Assembly: GCA_028577615.1 (NCBI GenBank)
Contig: JAJSDU010000009.1
Span: 23,178-87,177, forward strand
Direction: 5' to 3'
Length of the DNA stretch: 64,000 nt
Origin: Nitrosomonas sp.
GTDB lineage: Bacteria; Pseudomonadota; Gammaproteobacteria; Burkholderiales; Nitrosomonadaceae
Made by a program: the position numbers and the translations under genes. The notes under the pieces are model-generated. The model was not told where the DNA came from. It saw only the letters and a list, made by a program, of their open reading frames with translations, and ran no database searches. Below are positions 12,015 to 20,418 of the stretch, piece by piece; position 1 is the stretch's first letter, and each line of letters begins with the position of its first letter.

Positions 12015-12060
12015 ATTTTATAGCGTGCCGCATTGCGTGAGAATGCGGCAAATTGTCGCA
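12015..12060 (-). promoter_or_regulatory. Leftward palindrome-type promoter
   Basis: Read on the minus strand, the palindrome TGCGACAATTTGCCGCA (12060-12044) directly abuts TTCTCA (12043-12038) as -35. A 17-bp spacer and TAAAAT (12020-12015) as -10 follow. This is the same geometry as five rightward promoters nearby. It points to the spermidine-synthase-like gene starting at 11810. Confidence 0.6.
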
Positions 12061-12115
12061 CCGGTGTATGGCTGCGCGGATGAGCCGATGATCATGCGCA
12101 TGAGAGCTGACCAAC

Positions 12116-12178
12116 TGCGGCGATATACCGCATGCGACATTATGCCGCATTGATTAATCTGATTTTTTGCGCGATAGT
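12116..12178 (+). promoter_or_regulatory. Palindrome-type promoter of repeat copy A, paired operators
   Basis: Two 17-bp palindrome-like sites lie back to back: TGCGGCGATATACCGCA (12116-12132) and TGCGACATTATGCCGCA (12133-12149). The second abuts TTGATT (12150-12155). A 17-bp spacer and GATAGT (12173-12178) complete a sigma-70-type promoter. No protein gene follows in copy A. Confidence 0.6.
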
Positions 12179-12430
12179 AAAAAACGTTCAGTTTGATACA
12201 GCGCGGTACAGCAAGAAACATCTGCCTGTTCACTGTTCATTAATGACTGAATTAAACATGTGATATAGCCTTTGGTATTTTTTGTCTTTTCCTCCCAGGA
12301 GGTGCTACAGCGTATATCCGGATTTTTACAGGTTACCTCGGCTCATGAGTTGCTCACTCAGCGATAAGAGATCCACTATCCTGATCAATCCGGCGGCAAC
12401 CTGTATCACCTCCACCCTCATTCTTGACTT
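12116..12430 (+). repeat. Direct repeat copy A (non-coding, about 300 bp)
   Basis: It matches copy B at 12527-12815. The first 70 bp are nearly identical (palindromes, promoter and a TTTTTTGCGCGATAGTAAAAA block), and the rest is diverged but alignable. Shared blocks include GTGATATAG, CCTCCC with a following GAGGTG that can form a small hairpin, and CCTGATCAATCCG. An open frame in copy A (from about 12342, MSCSLSD) is stopped after five codons in copy B, arguing against coding. Confidence 0.65.
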
Positions 12431-12526
12431 TACCCCCACAATTTTGCTTTGCGGTTGTTCGCGCAAAGTCTTTGAGTATGGAATTTTCAGACTGCCGTAC
12501 GGCTTTGCTCATGGCATTTAATCGAC

Positions 12527-12589
12527 TGCGGCGATGTGCCGCATGTGACATTATGCCGCATTGATTAATCTGATTTTTTGCGCGATAGT
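12527..12589 (+). promoter_or_regulatory. Palindrome-type promoter of repeat copy B, paired operators
   Basis: Back-to-back sites TGCGGCGATGTGCCGCA (12527-12543) and TGTGACATTATGCCGCA (12544-12560) are followed at once by TTGATT (12561-12566), a 17-bp spacer and GATAGT (12584-12589). The arrangement is the same as in copy A. Confidence 0.6.
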
Positions 12590-12815
12590 AAAAAAGCATC
12601 CAGTTTGATGCAGTGCGATACAGTATGAAGCATCTATTCACTGATGATTGAATTAAACGTGTGATATAGCTTTGAAGTTTTTTCCTCCCTTGAGGTGTCA
12701 CGGAGTCTGTTTGGATTTTTCAGGATTTTCTCGATCAGTATGAGTTACTCACCATAGGTTTGCACTTTCCTGATCAATCCGACAGCAATCTGTGGCACCC
12801 CTTTTTTTACATTTG
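12527..12815 (+). repeat. Direct repeat copy B (non-coding, about 290 bp)
   Basis: Second copy of the segment at 12116-12430, in the same orientation and about 410 bp further on. Similarity is highest over the palindromes and promoter and fades beyond the poly-T stretch near 12800. Two rightward copies, each with its own promoter, suggest either duplicated leader regions or small non-coding transcripts. Confidence 0.65.
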
Positions 12816-12921: not shown

Positions 12922-12967
12922 TGCGACAATTTGCCACATTGTTTTTGCGGTTCTCTTGATAGATTCT
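12922..12967 (+). promoter_or_regulatory. Palindrome-type promoter before the first DUF1775-like gene
   Basis: The palindrome TGCGACAATTTGCCACA (12922-12938) abuts TTGTTT (12939-12944). After a 17-bp spacer comes GATTCT (12962-12967), a weaker -10 than in the sister promoters. The transcript would have a leader of about 370 nt before the start codon at 13341. Confidence 0.55.
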
Positions 12968-13340: not shown

Positions 13341-14150
13341 ATGATGAATCGTAATAAAAAAATTGAACGCACAGAGACGAAGGCAGTTTTGGCGATTACA
13401 GCAGCCTCGCTGATTATGCTGGCGAGCCATGAGGTTTCCGCACATACGCGATTAACGGTTTCAAAGACAAAAGAAAGCTCCGCGGCGCATGGTACGACTA
13501 CGACAGCAGTGAATATTCCGCATGGTTGTGGTGATAACTCGGTGATTGGCAATGTCTTCTTTTTACCGGACACCAATGCGAATCCCATCATTCAGACTTC
13601 TTCGGACAATTTTGCTACGGTTGAGACGCTTGATGGGGCGTCTGCACTCGATTATATCGTCAATGCACCGTTCATCCGGTTGATCAAAAGCCGCGATGTC
13701 TTTGACACGGTTGATTTTATCAATGATCCGCTGGGCAACCCGATCGGATTCTGGGCCGCCGGTGGTGAAATTCCTGCACGTAACTGGGTAGGGCAAATGC
13801 CGATGAACATAACTGCGGTAGCCATTCAACCGGCATCCTGTGCGGCTAGAGTAGTCTTTGTGCCGGCGATTGCCAATCCATGTAAGATGTCTTCAATGGC
13901 CCAAATTGATGGCAAGAATGCGGAAGATCCCAATGTCGATTTCTGGACCTCACCTGATGCAGGCAGTAAATGGGATTCACCAAATTGGACCTATCCGGCG
14001 ACATTTACCGTAGAGCGTGATCTTGAAAATAATCCACTGCCGTCAAGTTGCGGTACTGGTGTTGCAGTACGCATTTTCCCTTCGGCTGCGCAATTAGATC
14101 GTGATATGCCAGTCAGAATCAATGGCCAACAAGTCTGGCCGTTGCCTTAA
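13341..14150 (+). CDS. Secreted DUF1775/YcnI-like protein with mature N-terminal His, copy 1
   Basis: Exported protein of 269 residues. A signal peptide of about 34 residues ends EVSA and the mature chain begins HTRLTV. A following IPHGCGDNS phrase resembles the HGC region of DUF1775 (YcnI-type) proteins, which use an N-terminal His in copper binding. Conserved Trp (GFWAAGG) and several Cys (HGCGD, PASCAA, NPCKM, SSCGTG) suggest disulfides or metal sites. It shares with the next gene the N-terminus AHTRL and the identical end NGQQVWPLP, so they are tandem paralogues. Family assignment is moderate; copper binding is inference. Starts are possible at 13341 or 13344. Confidence 0.65.
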   Translation: MMNRNKKIERTETKAVLAITAASLIMLASHEVSAHTRLTVSKTKESSAAHGTTTTAVNIPHGCGDNSVIGNVFFLPDTNANPIIQTSSDNFATVETLDGASALDYIVNAPFIRLIKSRDVFDTVDFINDPLGNPIGFWAAGGEIPARNWVGQMPMNITAVAIQPASCAARVVFVPAIANPCKMSSMAQIDGKNAEDPNVDFWTSPDAGSKWDSPNWTYPATFTVERDLENNPLPSSCGTGVAVRIFPSAAQLDRDMPVRINGQQVWPLP

Positions 14151-14271
14151 CAAGATACTGACTATCACTTTTCCGGAAATGGAAAGTATGGGTTTTTCTG
14201 AGTGGTTTTCCTTGTTTGAGCCGGTAGCTGCCGCGTAAATAGCGGATGATTACCGGTTTCCAATGAACGGG

Positions 14272-14317
14272 TGCGACAATTTGCCGCATTGTTTTTCATT
14301 AATGTTTGCACGATACT
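14272..14317 (+). promoter_or_regulatory. Palindrome-type promoter before the second DUF1775-like gene
   Basis: TGCGACAATTTGCCGCA (14272-14288) abuts TTGTTT (14289-14294). A 17-bp spacer leads to GATACT (14312-14317). The expected transcript begins near 14324, giving a leader of about 85 nt. Confidence 0.65.
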
Positions 14318-14407
14318 GCCGCGAAGTGATGGAATTGAATAATGTTCGTTTCATTGCAGGAATAGTGTATTTCCGTATTTTTTATATCAATAAAACAAAG
14401 GTACAGA

Positions 14408-15169
14408 ATGAATAAATTTAGAGTACTCTCCGGCGCTGTAGCAGGCGCGTTACTGATTGGGCTTACGCAGAACGCGGCGGCGCATACGCGGCTGAATATT
14501 CCGGCAGCGACAGAAGGCCAGCGGGCTATCAATCATATCATCATCGGACATTCATGTGGTGATGCAACCACCACTATCGGTACTTCGGTGGTTTTTCCGA
14601 ATGGCGTGGGCTCCACCATACTGGTAAATGGCACGCAGCATAACGGCCCGATAACCGATTATTTGACCAACTATGGCAATAATGCCGCGTTGTTTTTTGA
14701 TCGTTCGGCATTTGATTACATGGATGAAAAAACCGTCAACGGCAATGTCGTCGGTTTCTGGGCGGGCGGCGGTCCGGGCATGCCGGCCAATCTCGCCGTG
14801 GCGGTTCCTTTCCGTCTGACCGCTGCAAATATCGAACCGACATCCTGCGCAACGAGCGTCAAAGTTTACATCTCCATTGTGGATATCTGTCAAATTACCG
14901 GTGTAGATGGCTTTGGCGAAGGTGTGGTCGAGTTGTGGACGCATGCCGGTCTGGGCACGCCGTATGACCGTGATCTGCATTTCGATGTCCCGGCGGGGAC
15001 CGATCCGGGTCCCGCGTCATTCACCATTAACCGGGATCTGACCAATAACCCGCTTCCTGAATCCTGTAACGGAACCGGTGTCGCGGTCGAGCTGAAACCT
15101 TCAGCCGCGCAGATCAACCGTGACATGCCGATAAAATTCAATGGCCAGCAAGTATGGCCTTTACCATAA
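14408..15169 (+). CDS. Secreted DUF1775/YcnI-like protein with mature N-terminal His, copy 2
   Basis: Exported protein of 253 residues. The signal peptide (MNKFRV..., hydrophobic core GAVAGALLIGL) ends NAAA and the mature protein starts HTRLNI. Phrases shared with copy 1 are HSCGDATTTIG, GFWAGGG, PTSCATSV, FTINRDLTNNPLPESC and the last nine residues. AAAGG lies just before ATG 14408. It has its own palindrome promoter upstream and a strong hairpin terminator downstream, so it is a single-gene transcript. A role as periplasmic copper-binding protein is inferred from the N-terminal His and the family. Confidence 0.65.
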   Translation: MNKFRVLSGAVAGALLIGLTQNAAAHTRLNIPAATEGQRAINHIIIGHSCGDATTTIGTSVVFPNGVGSTILVNGTQHNGPITDYLTNYGNNAALFFDRSAFDYMDEKTVNGNVVGFWAGGGPGMPANLAVAVPFRLTAANIEPTSCATSVKVYISIVDICQITGVDGFGEGVVELWTHAGLGTPYDRDLHFDVPAGTDPGPASFTINRDLTNNPLPESCNGTGVAVELKPSAAQINRDMPIKFNGQQVWPLP

Positions 15170-15200
15170 ATCGTTGTACGGACTGATATCTTTTTTATCA

Positions 15201-15230
15201 CAAAACGCCGTCTCAAAGCGGCGTTTTGTT
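15201..15230 (+). terminator. Rho-independent terminator
   Basis: A perfect 10-bp stem, CAAAACGCCG (15201-15210) with CGGCGTTTTG (15219-15228), has an 8-nt loop. It lies 31 bp after the stop of the second DUF1775-like gene and just before the next palindrome promoter. Confidence 0.8.
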
Positions 15231-15238
15231 CATGAGGG

Positions 15239-15284
15239 TGCGACAATTTGCCGCATTGCCATTTGTTTTCCCGGAAAGGATAAT
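15239..15284 (+). promoter_or_regulatory. Palindrome-type promoter for the 15.4-20.4 kb gene group
   Basis: TGCGACAATTTGCCGCA (15239-15255) abuts TTGCCA (15256-15261). A 17-bp spacer and GATAAT (15279-15284) follow, the best -10 of the set. It precedes the third secreted protein and probably also drives the tlpA-like, DUF4266, DUF3570 and apbE genes, since no terminator was seen between them. Confidence 0.65.
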
Positions 15285-15390
15285 GACTTATCGTTTTCGC
15301 CATTCTGATCTGCAGCACGCCGCATCACGCTTATGATACGGAACACATAGTGAATGGTACATATACAAAGGAACAGAGGAGAAAAGGGTC

Positions 15391-15879
15391 ATGCTTAAGC
15401 GATTGCGTTACATGAAAAAAAACATTTCCGGCTTTGTAGCCGGAGTATGCCTGTTGATCGGGTGTGCCGGTTTTGTTCACGCGCATGGTGGCGGTGCGGT
15501 GCTTGGAGATCCGCGGTCATTTACTGGCGTGGCTGTGGTTACGTGTACATACGATGGAGTTGGTTCAGCAGCCGATTATTACTTGACTGCCCAGATACGT
15601 GATAATTCGCCTGCTATACCAGGATTGTTGATCAATTTACATATTTTCAAAGGCAATAAAGCAGTGAGTATCAGCGATACGATTTCCGGGGATGCTGACT
15701 ACAGTCCATTTGTAGAGTTACGCGGCGGTGCAGGTGCTTACTTTGTCATTGTGAGTAAAACAGATGCCGGAGAGCGTTCGTTTGATCTGGAATGGCATTG
15801 CATGGCCGGTAATGATACACATACCGATACTGAGATCGGTATCACACAATTTGGCGTGCCGGAAGGGAGAAATTTTTAA
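15391..15879 (+). CDS. Secreted protein with mature N-terminal His, unknown family
   Basis: Product of 162 residues with a strong GGAG ribosome site before ATG 15391; MKKNIS at 15412 is an alternative start. The signal peptide ends FVHA, and the mature chain begins HGGGAVLGDP, giving a third His-first protein in a row. Two Cys (VTCTYD and WHCMAGND) could form a disulfide, and the C-terminal part has a DTHTDTE stretch that could bind metal. The mature part looks beta-rich. I do not recognise the family. It lies 55 bp before the tlpA-like gene and is likely co-transcribed with it. Confidence 0.7.
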   Translation: MLKRLRYMKKNISGFVAGVCLLIGCAGFVHAHGGGAVLGDPRSFTGVAVVTCTYDGVGSAADYYLTAQIRDNSPAIPGLLINLHIFKGNKAVSISDTISGDADYSPFVELRGGAGAYFVIVSKTDAGERSFDLEWHCMAGNDTHTDTEIGITQFGVPEGRNF

Positions 15880-15933
15880 TACGATGATTTCTTATTACCT
15901 TCGGCTAATTATAAAAATGAATTATAAAATCAC

Positions 15934-16453
15934 ATGAGAAGAATACTTCATTTTCTGTATCTTTCAGTTCTTCCGGTTTATTTATTGCTGTCAACATCGA
16001 CCATGGCCGCACAGCTGGTTGACCGGCCTGTACCGGCATGCAATCTGACTGCATTGGACGGTGTGCCGGTTGACAGTTTGCAGGCACTGAAAGGCGAAGT
16101 GCTTTATGTTGATTTCTGGGCATCCTGGTGTCCGCCGTGCATACAGTCGTTTCCCTTTCTGACCGGACTACAGCAGGAGTATGGCGAACGGGGACTGCGT
16201 GTTGTCGGCGGCCAAATCGACGAAAAGGTCACCCAAGCGGCAAAAATTTCTTTCCGATTATCCTGCCGGATTTACCATCGTCGCCGATCTGTCGAAACAA
16301 TGCGCGAAAGAATTTGACGTCATTGCCATGCCGTCTTCGTACCTGATCGACCGGGAAGGCATCGTGCGGTATATCCATCGCGGTTTCCGGCAGGGGGAAA
16401 CAAAAGAACTGCGGCTGATTGTTGAACAGCTTTTAGACCGTCACCCTGATTGA
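15934..16453 (+). pseudogene. TlpA-like thioredoxin, frameshifted
   Basis: Periplasmic thiol-disulfide reductase of the TlpA/ResA type. The first frame starts at 15934 with a signal peptide ending TMAA, and carries the active-site phrase FWASWCPPCIQ. It then leaves the family sense after VTQAAK. The second frame continues the fold from KFLSDYPAGFTIVADLS through AMPSSYLIDREGIV to the stop at 16453. One extra base in the run of five A at 16242-16246 explains the break; deleting one A gives a continuous protein of about 172 residues. It may be a true mutation, a sequencing error or slippage. A working copy would reduce or protect the Cys-containing neighbours. Confidence 0.8.
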
Positions 16454-16469
16454 TTTCTGTGATGAGATT

Positions 16470-16697
16470 ATGAGATTAAAACGTTTATTTACCTTTGGAC
16501 TGACAGGCATAATGTTATTGACATTATCGGCTTGCACCAGTGTCGCGGCATGGGAGCGCGGTTATCTGGCCAAACCACAGATGGCCATTGAGCCTAATCC
16601 GTTGCAGCATCATATTCAACTCCATAACTATTTCAGCCGGGAAGCGGCTGCCAGTACGCATTCCGCAGATGGCGGCGGCGGCTGCGGGTGCTACTGA
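16470..16697 (+). CDS. DUF4266 lipoprotein with GGGGCGC tail
   Basis: Lipoprotein of 75 residues. The signal ends LLTLSAC, with the lipobox Cys near residue 22. The mature part contains WERGYLAKPQMA, then HHIQLHNYFSREAAAST and the C-terminal GGGGCGCY, the pattern of DUF4266 proteins. The two Cys in the flexible Gly-rich tail and the His-rich middle suggest metal binding or chemical modification, but nothing is proven. It starts at ATG 16470, 16 bp after the tlpA-like stop, and is followed 14 bp later by the DUF3570 gene. The TlpA, DUF4266, DUF3570, ApbE order appears to be a recurring neighbourhood. Confidence 0.85.
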   Translation: MRLKRLFTFGLTGIMLLTLSACTSVAAWERGYLAKPQMAIEPNPLQHHIQLHNYFSREAAASTHSADGGGGCGCY

Positions 16698-16711
16698 TCT
16701 GATCTCTTCAG

Positions 16712-19489
16712 ATGGGGTTTAAGCAGAAAAAGCCATTGCATGGCAGGATTTCTGCCGTACGCTTAAATCCCGCGCAGCATCGGCATTCCAGGATACGAGC
16801 ACGATTGTCCCAGCCTGCGGATACCGCGGGCAAGGCGCTGAAAGCCTTGACGTCGGCGGCTATCGTTCTGCCCGGACTGATGTTGTCGTCCGCGCAGGCG
16901 GATGACGGTGGCCGGGTCAATTTTCAGTTCAGCCGCTATCAGGAAGGCGCGCGCAATCTTTTTGGCACGCCGAACAACTTTGATCCTATTCGCGCGGATG
17001 TTTTGCATGGCAACGGACTTTTTCCGCTGACCGATCGCGCCAAATTTTCATTCAGTTACACACAGGATACCTGGTCTGGCGCGACGCCGATTACGACATC
17101 GCCACTGGCGGCCAATCCTTATCAGTCGATTTTAGCAAATACACCTTCAGGCACGACTGTGGTTGGCGCATCACCGTTGATATTTCCCAGTGGATTATTG
17201 CTGGATCGCGATCTGAACCCGCTCGGCAGAAACCCGGATGGTGCACTGATACAGGATACGCGATCTGTACTGGTGCTTGCTTCGGCGTCTCCGGAAACGC
17301 GACACCAGGCCAATTTTGGATTAGGGTATGAATGGGATAAAGCAGCGATCAACGCCAGCGCCGGATTCTCACTGGAAAATGATTACCGTTCCAGCTTCGG
17401 TAACCTGGGTGGCCGGCTCGACTTTAACCAGAAACTGACCACCGTCAAGTTCGGCGCGGGATACACCAGCAGCAATATCAGCGCGATACTCGATCACGAT
17501 GCTTCGCCTTATCTGACCAAAACCGCTTTCGCCAGGCAGATCGAAAGCCGCGGCGGGTCCGAAATACTGCATGGCGAGCGACAGGATTGGTCCGCCAACC
17601 TCGGACTGACACAGGTGCTCAACAAGCACGCACTGATTGACGCGAATTTCGGTTATACGCACAGTCGCGGATTTCTGGAAAATCCCTACAAAGCCATGAC
17701 GGTTATTTTTGTCAATCCTGACATTCTGAATAACGGCCAGACAACACCTGTGCCTGGCGACGTGCGTGCTTTGCTCGAACAACGCCCCGGTCAGCGCAAT
17801 CAGTTTGCCTTTAATACAAAATATATTCAGCATATCAGCTTTTTCGATGCCGCTTTGCATCTGGATTACAAATTCACTGCCGATGACTGGGGTATCAAGA
17901 CGCATACCTTTGATGCCAGCTGGGTGCAACCGCTGCCGTTTGGCTGGATGTTCACACCGAAAATCCGCTACTACTCACAGGATTCAGCCAGCTTTTACAA
18001 TCCCTTTCTGATTTCCCAGCAGAATTTTTCCAGGCAGGCGTTTGACAGTCTCGGCCGGGAAGTCTGGGTGGATTCGTTGAATCCGAAAAATGAATATTTC
18101 CGCGATACGAATTTTAACCTGGTCGACGGTGCGGGAAATCCGGTTAACGAAGCAACGCTTCTCGTTGAACCGAAAACAGTTGCGTTTGATCCCGGATTAT
18201 TGCCGGGTAACTTTTCCAGCGATCACCGGCTTGCCGGATTTGGCGCGCTCAGCGGTGGTTTTACTTTAAGCAGGCAATTCGCCAAGGGTATCGCGCTGGA
18301 AGCCGGATTTGAATATTACACCCGTGCCAGCGGGTTTAAGCTGGGTGGAGGCGGCAACAACAGTTTTGCCGATTTTGATTACTATGTCGCCAATGCGGCG
18401 ATAAAGCTCAATCTGGAATCGATGTCGCCTACAAATCCGCTTGGGATAACACCGCACGGGCATCATCGCAACCATGCGGAAGAGCACGGCAATGGCGGAG
18501 GGCATCGGCATAATCAGCCTGCAGGGTTGATGTACGCGCATATGCTGGACAAGCCGGGACAGTTTATGGTGGGTTACCGTTTTATGTATAGCCGCCAGGA
18601 TGGCAGAATGCATCATGGCTCACACGCAGTCAGCGACCCGGTGGTTGTCGAGCAGGGTTGCAGTGATGAAATTTTGTGCCGGTTTACGCCATCCTACATG
18701 AATATGCGCATGCACATGCTTGACCTGATGTATGCGCCGACACGCTGGCTGAATTTGATGGTCATGCCGACGTTCATGGATATGGATATGGATCTTCGTG
18801 AACTCGGCGGCAGGCCGCCGCGGGTGCCGGGCGTGCACGAACATACCGGCATTGCCGGGCATTCGACCGGCGTTATTGGTGATACGTTAATGGCGGCATT
18901 GCTCAAGCTCTATGAAAAACGCGGACATCGTCTGCACGCCAGTCTTGGATTGAGCGCGCCTTCCGGCAAGACGGATATAGAGTTGCGTCGCATGTTCAAG
19001 ATAGACGGCGGAGCGATTCATTTTGGCATGCAGCTGGGCAGCGGCACCTGGGATTTCGTGCCAAGCCTGACGTATACCGGTGAGCATGATCGCTGGTCCT
19101 GGGGCGTGCAGGTGAGTGGCGCCAAACGTATGGAAAGGCAGAATGACTCGGGTTATCGTCTGGGGGATGCGCTTCAGGCGACCACCTGGGGCGGGATTGA
19201 ACTGTCGCGCTGGCTGAGTGCTTCGGTGCGCGGCATTTACACGGTGCAGGATCGTATTCATGGTGATTTCAATACCTTTAACGCGCGTATCGGCCCGATG
19301 GATTTCCCGAAAAACTACGGCGGCCAGTTCTGGTATATCGGAGCGGGTGTGAACGTTAATATACCGGGCGGCCGGTTTGCCGGAAATCATCTGGGTTTTG
19401 AATGGCTGCAACCGGTACACACCGACGTTACTGGATTTCAGTTAAATCCCAAGGGCGCGCTGGCGGCGTCGTGGAGTTATACTTTCTGA
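16712..19489 (+). CDS. DUF3570 outer-membrane protein fused to a second Met/His-rich barrel; candidate FMN acceptor
   Basis: Very large exported protein of 925 residues. An extended basic N-terminus leads into a signal peptide ending SSAQA near residue 63. Residues about 64-575 are a beta-rich DUF3570 region with alternating aromatic strands. DTWSGAT at residues 119-125 fits the ApbE flavinylation consensus D-x-x-[S/T]-G-A-[T/S]. A His-rich linker (about 580-603, HGHHRNHAEEHG and GGGHRHN) follows. The C-terminal part, about 606-925, looks like a second outer-membrane barrel with a Met-rich stretch at 663-697 (MNMRMHM, VMPTFMDMDMD) and ends in WSYTF, a normal barrel terminus. DUF3570 proteins usually lack the second part. 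Transport or redox roles are inference. Confidence 0.8.
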   Translation: MGFKQKKPLHGRISAVRLNPAQHRHSRIRARLSQPADTAGKALKALTSAAIVLPGLMLSSAQADDGGRVNFQFSRYQEGARNLFGTPNNFDPIRADVLHGNGLFPLTDRAKFSFSYTQDTWSGATPITTSPLAANPYQSILANTPSGTTVVGASPLIFPSGLLLDRDLNPLGRNPDGALIQDTRSVLVLASASPETRHQANFGLGYEWDKAAINASAGFSLENDYRSSFGNLGGRLDFNQKLTTVKFGAGYTSSNISAILDHDASPYLTKTAFARQIESRGGSEILHGERQDWSANLGLTQVLNKHALIDANFGYTHSRGFLENPYKAMTVIFVNPDILNNGQTTPVPGDVRALLEQRPGQRNQFAFNTKYIQHISFFDAALHLDYKFTADDWGIKTHTFDASWVQPLPFGWMFTPKIRYYSQDSASFYNPFLISQQNFSRQAFDSLGREVWVDSLNPKNEYFRDTNFNLVDGAGNPVNEATLLVEPKTVAFDPGLLPGNFSSDHRLAGFGALSGGFTLSRQFAKGIALEAGFEYYTRASGFKLGGGGNNSFADFDYYVANAAIKLNLESMSPTNPLGITPHGHHRNHAEEHGNGGGHRHNQPAGLMYAHMLDKPGQFMVGYRFMYSRQDGRMHHGSHAVSDPVVVEQGCSDEILCRFTPSYMNMRMHMLDLMYAPTRWLNLMVMPTFMDMDMDLRELGGRPPRVPGVHEHTGIAGHSTGVIGDTLMAALLKLYEKRGHRLHASLGLSAPSGKTDIELRRMFKIDGGAIHFGMQLGSGTWDFVPSLTYTGEHDRWSWGVQVSGAKRMERQNDSGYRLGDALQATTWGGIELSRWLSASVRGIYTVQDRIHGDFNTFNARIGPMDFPKNYGGQFWYIGAGVNVNIPGGRFAGNHLGFEWLQPVHTDVTGFQLNPKGALAASWSYTF

Positions 19490-19491
19490 CT

Positions 19492-20418
19492 GTGGCTGTG
19501 CGCTTACGGTATTATCACTTCGATTTCAAAGCCATGGGTTCGCCGTGCACAGTCCAGTTGTATGCGCGCAATGCGAAAAAAGGTGCGGCAGCAGCGGAAA
19601 TTGCGATGAATGACGTGCGGCGTCTGGAGTCACGCTATTCACGTTATCGTGAAGACAGTTTTTTATCCGGGATCAACCGCGTGGCTGCAACTGGCGGCGA
19701 TGTGTCTGTCGACGAAGAAACAGCCGGTCTGCTGGATTATGCTGACACCTGTTATCAACAGAGCAATGGCCTGTTTGATATTACTTCCGGCGTGCTGCGC
19801 AGGGCGTGGGATTTTAAATCCGGTAAGCTGCCGGACAGCCAGACGATTGAATGCGTCCGGAAAAAAATCGGCTGGCATCATGTCAAATGGGTTCGTCCCG
19901 TTTTATCATTTGATCTGCCAGGGATGGAAATTGATTTTGGCGGCATCGTCAAGGAATATGCAGTCGACCGCGCCGCTGCGCTGTGCCGGGAAGCCGGAAT
20001 ATCACATGGTATTGTCAATCTGGGTGGTGATATTAAAGCAATCGGGCCGCATCCTGACGGCAGCCCCTGGCGGGTAGCGGTGCGTCACCCCCGTCAATCG
20101 GATGGAATACTCGAAACACTATTGCTTTATTCAGGTGCGCTTGCCAGCAGCGGCGATTACGAACGCTGCATCGTTGTCAACAATATCCGTTACGGCCATG
20201 TGCTCAATCCAAAAACAGGATGGCCAGTGCGCACTATGGCAGCGGTCAGTGTCTTGAGTGATTATTGCGTCGTGGCCGGCAGTGCATCGACTATCGGCAT
20301 GCTGCTGGAGGAGCGCGGTGCGGACTGGTTGCTTGAGCTTGGCCTGCCGCATATGTGGGTCGATGTGAATGGCCGGGTCGGCGGCACACTGATCGAAAAA
20401 CAGAAAAATCCATTCTGA
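19492..20418 (+). CDS. apbE: FAD:protein FMN transferase (ApbE-like)
   Basis: Transfers FMN from FAD onto Thr or Ser of exported target proteins. Family phrases are present in order: FKAMGSPCTV, FDITSGVLRRAWDF, IDFGGIVKEYAVDRA, VNLGGDIKAIG, HVLNPKTGWPV and VVAGSASTIGML. The open frame extends upstream into the DUF3570 gene, but GTG 19492, two bases after that gene's stop, or GTG 19498 gives the best fit. With these starts there is no signal peptide or lipobox, which is unusual because ApbE normally acts outside the cytoplasm. It is the last gene of the cluster; a strong terminator follows at 20658. Confidence 0.88.
   Translation: MAVRLRYYHFDFKAMGSPCTVQLYARNAKKGAAAAEIAMNDVRRLESRYSRYREDSFLSGINRVAATGGDVSVDEETAGLLDYADTCYQQSNGLFDITSGVLRRAWDFKSGKLPDSQTIECVRKKIGWHHVKWVRPVLSFDLPGMEIDFGGIVKEYAVDRAAALCREAGISHGIVNLGGDIKAIGPHPDGSPWRVAVRHPRQSDGILETLLLYSGALASSGDYERCIVVNNIRYGHVLNPKTGWPVRTMAAVSVLSDYCVVAGSASTIGMLLEERGADWLLELGLPHMWVDVNGRVGGTLIEKQKNPF

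Follow-up and report, generated by a model that had tools for sequence, protein, structure and literature searches.

The closest described relatives of the locus presented here are the DUF3570 flavinylation clusters of Meheust et al. (2021, eLife; PMC8238504). The relevant passages of that paper describe clusters of ApbE, a DUF3570 protein, a thioredoxin-like protein and a DUF4266 protein with a CXC end, report 316 clusters without a neighbouring DsbD, and state that the DUF3570 protein of Chlorobium is flavinylated at two [S/T]GA[S/T] sites. A second point of reference is the copper protein YcnI (DUF1775) of B. subtilis, in which, by its own numbering, the N-terminal His is followed 23 residues later by a Glu ligand (PMC8424229, in part). 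The third is the RegB/RegA system (PrrBA, RegSR). RegB is described as sensing the ubiquinone pool (PMC9147068, in part), and in the relevant section of PMC5506826 RegA-type sites are called degenerate and dissimilar, with none found in Acidithiobacillus, and the RegR box of Bradyrhizobium is quoted as GNGRCRTTNNGNCGC. For Methylomonas, a passage of PMC13274454 has RegA acting directly on feo and probably indirectly on tonB operons.

In this work we analysed a stretch of 64,000 nucleotides from Nitrosomonas sp., referred to as the window, in which genes for DUF3570, DUF4266, thioredoxin-like and ApbE proteins lie together. The preliminary description had presented a same-strand gene group and knew of no described system with its composition. 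Open reading frames were confirmed on the plus strand across 13341-20418, and the gene content was as claimed after corrections concerning the barrel, the thioredoxin, the detectability of the YcnI relationship and ApbE. The claim of novelty fell for the core, which is published (PMC8238504, in the passages on these clusters); the extension and the RegA-type operator were not found described in the open-licence literature.

All genes of the unit are read from the plus strand. Two secreted YcnI-like proteins come first, A1 (13341..14150, 269 aa), a divergent DUF1775 relative, and A2 (14408..15169, 253 aa), followed by B (15391..15879, 162 aa), a secreted protein without known family; all three have His as the predicted mature end, their signal peptides being judged by eye and not with a predictor. 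The TlpA-like thioredoxin gene is present as described, and in the window it is split over two different frames, 15934..16317, which holds the WCPPC motif, and 16181..16453. This is the only broken thioredoxin frame among 58 loci: the gene is full length in one frame in 56, and in L072 it stops at the contig end. The small DUF4266 lipoprotein (16470..16697; Pfam match 3e-18) was borne out, with a lipobox judged by eye and a C-terminal CGC. It is followed by a 925-aa outer-membrane protein (16712..19489) and by the flavin transferase ApbE (19402..20418, with the true start probably at about 19500), which matched its family at 1.3e-71. The parts for thiol chemistry and covalent FMN that had been named are present among the window genes.

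The 925-aa protein had been taken for a double DUF3570 barrel. DUF3570 occurs one time only, at residues 44-559 (1.2e-106), and the rest is a different barrel, here called BarC (18455..19486). We rejected the second half as DUF3570 because 10 of 12 aligned relatives match PF13557. The BarC domain of the window itself gave no Pfam match at E<=10, and the best PDB hit of a profile search with BarC had an E of 0.3. Methionine makes up 6.1 % of BarC, against 0.6 % of the DUF3570 part and 2.8 % of the long frames of the window, and the family shares an invariant stretch, M-x-M-x-M-H-M. In a survey of 274 genomes of the class, for which 30 BarC loci were taken and 14 further matches left out, the long DUF3570-BarC fusion (open frame of at least 904 aa) was seen in three genomes, the window genome included; one more genome (G231) had a weak BarC match in an 808-aa frame.

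By the motif rule given in PMC8238504, the DUF3570 part contains one predicted flavinylation motif, SGAT, at 17075..17086 (+), and the second motif position reads VGAS at 17162-17173 (+). Among 55 distinct DUF3570 frames, 39 have one [S/T]GA[S/T] site, 14 have two and 2 have none; five carriers outside Nitrosomonas have two each. The motif is conserved, and the 925-aa protein would carry FMN. The presence of ApbE agreed with the earlier claim, and its lack of a visible export signal raises a puzzle, since the gene adjoins that of an outer-membrane substrate. In 29 of 40 distinct ApbE frames recognised by profile, the open frame through the AMG motif has at most 30 codons, so that a signal peptide does not fit; nine have 31-50 codons and two have more, of which the one in L086 could encode a hydrophobic start. 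To the eye, ApbE frames from ordinary DUF4266 loci look similar. Cytosolic ApbEs are known (PMC12052999), and the passages on them include none with an outer-membrane barrel as substrate.

For the leader proteins, both the paralogy (A1 and A2 are 40 % identical) and the YcnI relationship of the preliminary description held, while Pfam and NCBIfam gave no support for the latter. Neither A1 nor A2 matched either collection at E<=1, PF07987 was matched by none of 30 A members at E<=10, and DUF1775 itself is present in none of 37 genus genomes. We then used a profile of the A family that was built without any DUF1775 sequence. Run against 398 genomes of the phylum, it matched five (E 9e-7 to 9e-6), of which two are Nitrosomonas, and the three matches outside Nitrosomonas are DUF1775 proteins by Pfam (E <1e-40); outside its own family the profile thus matches DUF1775 proteins only in these genomes. 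Profile-profile alignment with hhalign joined the A profile to DUF1775 (91.4 %, P 9e-7) over 119 columns that include His1, H-x-C and W-x-GG, compared with P 0.41 for the reversed control and P 0.035 or higher for unrelated profiles. A PDB profile search with the A family returned one match, at E 0.88. Taken together, the profile search and the profile-profile match make the A proteins distant relatives of the copper protein YcnI, and on this homology A1 and A2 are to be classed as divergent relatives of DUF1775. His1 and a second His 22 residues on are invariant in 23 of 23 A proteins and W-x-GG is kept in nearly all, with no invariant Glu. Since the Glu ligand of YcnI lies 23 residues after its His, the second His of A may, by analogy, stand in its place.

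B had been described as a third His-first secreted protein, and this proved right: the predicted mature end is His in 9 of 10 B proteins. No Pfam or NCBIfam family was found above the cut-off, and C52, H136, C137 and H144 are invariant. A single 367-aa frame in another genome (G333, L189:1699-2802) matched both the B and the A profiles as a possible B-A fusion, a hint that A and B may act together. Extra A and B paralogues were also seen in L046, L115, L120 and L123, near a box of the kind described below, together with a BNR-repeat protein and another thioredoxin-like protein.

The check named beforehand, conservation of the neighbourhood, was run, and the unit is conserved across Nitrosomonas loci. 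From 80 of 109 A2 relatives, of which the nearest named ones are in Nitrosomonas sp. SJ634 (91 %) and N. marina (80 %), we fetched 77 loci of named genomes, 52 with DUF3570 and 25 without. Additional DUF3570 matches in overlapping frames of the fetched loci are spurious. The 52 DUF3570 loci hold 53 DUF4266 places; at 49 of them A, B and thioredoxin precede and DUF3570 follows, and 35 of these 49 also have the second barrel and ApbE. Thioredoxin is missing at three of the 53 places, and at one both A and B are missing in front. A2 relatives occurred in 33 of 37 genomes of the genus and in none of 24 genomes of the order's other families. Surveys of 61 genomes of the genus, taken from a larger group, found DUF4266 in 49, B in 50 and all or part of the 925-aa protein in 50, some of these last matches being fragments at contig ends. 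The fusion protein was not matched in the other 11, N. europaea-type genomes among them, so the fusion is not essential for copper supply; the N. europaea locus L095 has an A-type gene without the cluster.

DUF4266 as such is common, occurring in 66 of the 274 class genomes. We took 30 of these 66 carrier genomes for ordinary DUF4266 loci and found no A, B, BarC, regB or regA within about 6 kb on each side, while a profile recognised DUF3570 in 22 of the 30. Because DUF4266 is this frequent but the long fusion was seen in only three of the 274 genomes, and because the ordinary loci lack the extension, the window holds a special variant of a common kind of cluster.

The repeated identical operators of the preliminary description are genuine: exact 23-nt repeats lie at 14269-14291 and 15236-15258. 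Each encloses a 17-bp palindromic box, TGCGACAATTTGTCGCA, at 14272..14288 (+), 120 bp before A2, and at 15239..15255 (+), about 136 bp before B. A near copy at 12922..12938 (+) lies about 400 bp before A1, and an exact reversed copy at 12044..12060 (-) is part of a reversed 21-nt copy (12042-12062). Upstream of A1, a stretch of about 400 bp is tandemly duplicated (12095-12410 and 12506-12799, pieces 70-88 % alike); no gene was recognised in it, and each copy holds one degenerate box with two mismatches (12133..12149 and 12544..12560, both +).

At <=1 mismatch the box was found in all 61 Nitrosomonas genomes, compared with two matches in all for the reversed pattern (one each in G014 and G079). 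With identical frames and genes with less than 300 nt upstream dropped, and with a genome possibly counted under two labels, A genes have the box at <=2 mismatches between -300 and +60 of the gene start in 85 of 115 cases and B genes in 22 of 81, whereas it stands at none of 57 thioredoxin, 58 DUF4266, 49 DUF3570 and 39 ApbE genes. Ten shuffled 17-mers gave no match at the same leader and interior genes. A box before leader genes and not interior ones is the arrangement of an operon headed by leader genes, which speaks against independent expression of the genes of the unit, as far as their arrangement can tell. We rejected functionless repeats, since interior genes are avoided and shuffled controls were zero or nearly so. 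A regulator of the CRP/FNR type was also rejected because sites of that type have even spacing and the box palindrome is odd-spaced. A promoter scan gave 10 candidates where 12.0 were expected by chance. Not every carrier has the box: it is absent from L113 and L189 (the G333 cluster) and has three mismatches in L112 and L118, while G258 (L188) has four copies without mismatch. Two of the 30 ordinary DUF4266 loci had it at <=3 mismatches, roughly as many as chance would give in 347 kb by our estimate.

Four of the six places at <=1 mismatch in the window's own genome belong to the A1-ApbE locus. One outside it precedes a kinase/regulator pair with RegB and RegA features. A copy of the palindrome on contig C22 of the same genome (L044:3954-3970) lies about 70 nt downstream of the RNase P RNA gene within a longer hairpin; it may be unrelated, possibly a terminator instead of an operator. 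In N. europaea-like genomes (L029-L037; G061, G001), the box was seen before an ECF sigma factor with a TonB-receptor operon (whose FecR-like gene was named by eye) and other TonB receptors, and also before a BNR protein and a PepSY protein. With sigma-factor/TonB-receptor operons behind it, the wider regulon looks like one of metal supply.

The link to RegB/RegA rests on several observations. All 36 RegB-type kinase frames carry the GGxxNPF quinone motif and 32 of the 36 match the H-box pattern as written, and the response regulator combines a PF00072 receiver with a PF02954 Fis-type HTH. For 30 of the 31 genomes surveyed, the box lies upstream of regB in 23 at <=2 mismatches and in 24 at <=3, usually at a distance of 80-100 bp from the assumed start, with six genomes lacking it at <=3 mismatches and no match for 50 shuffled 17-mers. 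TGCGACAATTTGTCGCA fits the RegR box GNGRCRTTNNGNCGC at 10-11 of 11 positions. In other gammaproteobacteria, a standalone barC gene adjoins regB in 8 of 27 loci (L161-L187), and for 22 of these 27 (L174, L179, L180, L181 and L185 left out) the box stood upstream of barC at <=3 mismatches in 11, compared with a mean of 0.01 and a maximum of 1 for 200 shuffled 17-mers; in distant genomes where regB and barC diverge, it lies in the gap between them. A-B-DUF4266-DUF3570~BarC is also present in three MAG loci with odd labels, and in two of these regB and regA directly adjoin the A-type cluster, after it in L113 and before it in L118. L113 (CAMDML010000001.1) comes from a MAG titled Klebsiella pneumoniae with a Nitrosomonas-like A-B-DUF4266-DUF3570 cluster, a label that is probably wrong.

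From position and sequence fit we infer that RegA binds the box. That another regulator owns it, with an indirect RegB/RegA link, seems improbable to us; such a reading would draw on the degeneracy described for RegA-type consensus sites (PMC5506826, in part), and it is opposed by the box before regB itself, its place between divergent regB and barC in distant genomes and its fit to the RegR box. The copper-responsive Cys156 of Rhodobacter RegA has no equivalent in the Nitrosomonas RegA frames printed, so we rejected the copper-Cys mechanism for them.

Our overall reading is that the window cluster belongs with the DUF3570/DUF4266/thioredoxin/ApbE flavinylation clusters as a variant linked to RegB/RegA and extended for copper, and we give it slightly less than an even chance. 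The set probably deals with copper at the cell surface, and redox handling or uptake of the metal is its most likely function. RegB would read the quinone pool and RegA would bind the box; Cu(II) would be bound by the A proteins, with their two invariant His of which one is N-terminal, and by B. Periplasmic thiols would supply electrons, which the thioredoxin and the CXC lipoprotein would relay to FMN on the DUF3570 barrel; this barrel would reduce Cu(II), and Cu(I) would then move through or along the methionine-rich barrel. The net effect would be reductive copper acquisition or copper redox buffering in a bacterium of high copper demand. Counting against this explanation are the second FMN site, which reads VGAS, and the ApbE without export signal, and likewise the 11 genus genomes without the fusion, the absence of the box from L113, L189 and the regB upstream region of six genomes, the Cys that the Nitrosomonas RegA frames printed lack, and the degeneracy of the RegA-type sites in print. 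A more far-reaching form of it is an outer-membrane metalloreductase-importer switched by RegB/RegA, in which the FMN barrel reduces Cu(II) from the His-first YcnI-like proteins and the methionine-rich barrel imports Cu(I); this we put forward tentatively, as a rather doubtful proposal. If true, it would mean a reductive route of copper uptake in Gram-negative bacteria, coupled to the quinone pool and most pronounced in ammonia oxidisers, in which a non-exported ApbE attaches FMN before the barrel leaves the cytosol.

The same parts may be read as copper defence, with A and B scavenging envelope copper, the flavin and thiol parts keeping it harmless and the barrel serving as exit. YcnI-type proteins and methionine-rich barrels are also compatible with binding and export, and induction under over-reduction would be plausible for a redox regulator such as RegA. 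However, the same box stands before the uptake-like TonB-receptor and sigma-factor operons of N. europaea-like genomes, and neither a copper ATPase nor an RND pump or multicopper oxidase could be recognised in the unit; we regard defence as unlikely. Those sigma-factor/TonB-receptor operons would also suit iron, with the flavin barrel reducing Fe(III) for assimilation and the His-first proteins serving other ends; the passages of PMC8238504 report the VIT1 iron transporter in 25 DUF3570 clusters, and the action of Methylomonas RegA on feo and, probably indirectly, on tonB operons (PMC13274454, in part) points the same way. Yet the parts that mark this variant, the YcnI relationship and Met-x-Met-His-Met, point to copper and are absent from the 30 ordinary DUF4266 loci, which leaves iron with a small likelihood. 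These marking parts also weigh on a more general proposal, an electron outlet or envelope redox maintenance under RegB/RegA in which the metal-like features are redox cofactor sites only. It accords with the sensing of the ubiquinone pool by RegB (PMC9147068, in part) and with the electron chain formed by flavin, thiol and CXC parts (PMC8238504, in part), but the YcnI-type leaders and the methionine-rich barrel would go unexplained, and we consider it quite unlikely.

How copper passes the outer membrane is poorly known in Gram-negative bacteria, above all in ammonia oxidisers with their copper monooxygenase. The unit makes this question testable, with a named operon, a candidate regulator with a 17-bp site and a flavin-methionine barrel fusion. 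It also suggests a class of RegB/RegA targets in Nitrosomonas and would assign a likely metal to one branch of the DUF3570 clusters.

In the open-licence literature, which leaves most subscription journals outside, DUF3570/DUF4266 appeared only in PMC8238504. The extension (YcnI-like pair, B and fused methionine-rich barrel), the RegA-type operator and RegB/RegA target genes of the A-to-ApbE kind were not found there. Combinations of Nitrosomonas with YcnI or with flavinylation were absent from the part of the matches covered, searches for flavinylated outer-membrane copper proteins and for PF13557 with copper gave no match to the window system, and the passages of PMC12914433 mention no BNR, thioredoxin or RegA.

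Compared with YcnI/DUF1775 as described in the relevant part of PMC8424229, the A proteins have in common the N-terminal His after the signal peptide, W-x-GG and profile homology, whereas they fall below Pfam detection, are about 100 residues longer, show no evident Glu ligand and have an invariant second His. BarC is related to the PF13557 (Phenol_MetA_deg) outer-membrane proteins through the relatives that match that family, but is methionine-rich, often lies beside regB and is fused to DUF3570 in the window. The regulatory pair resembles RegB/RegA (PrrBA, RegSR) in its GGxxNPF kinase, the Cys after the H box, the receiver with Fis-type HTH and the RegR-like box; unlike in that system, the Nitrosomonas RegA frames printed lack a Cys156 equivalent, and the TGCGACAATTTGTCGCA palindrome is far less degenerate than the RegA sites in print. 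With the DUF3570 flavinylation clusters, as portrayed in the corresponding passages of PMC8238504, the window shares the same four core genes and the same order of ideas, but here DUF3570 is fused to a methionine-rich barrel, the A pair and B take the lead, and a RegA-type box precedes them.
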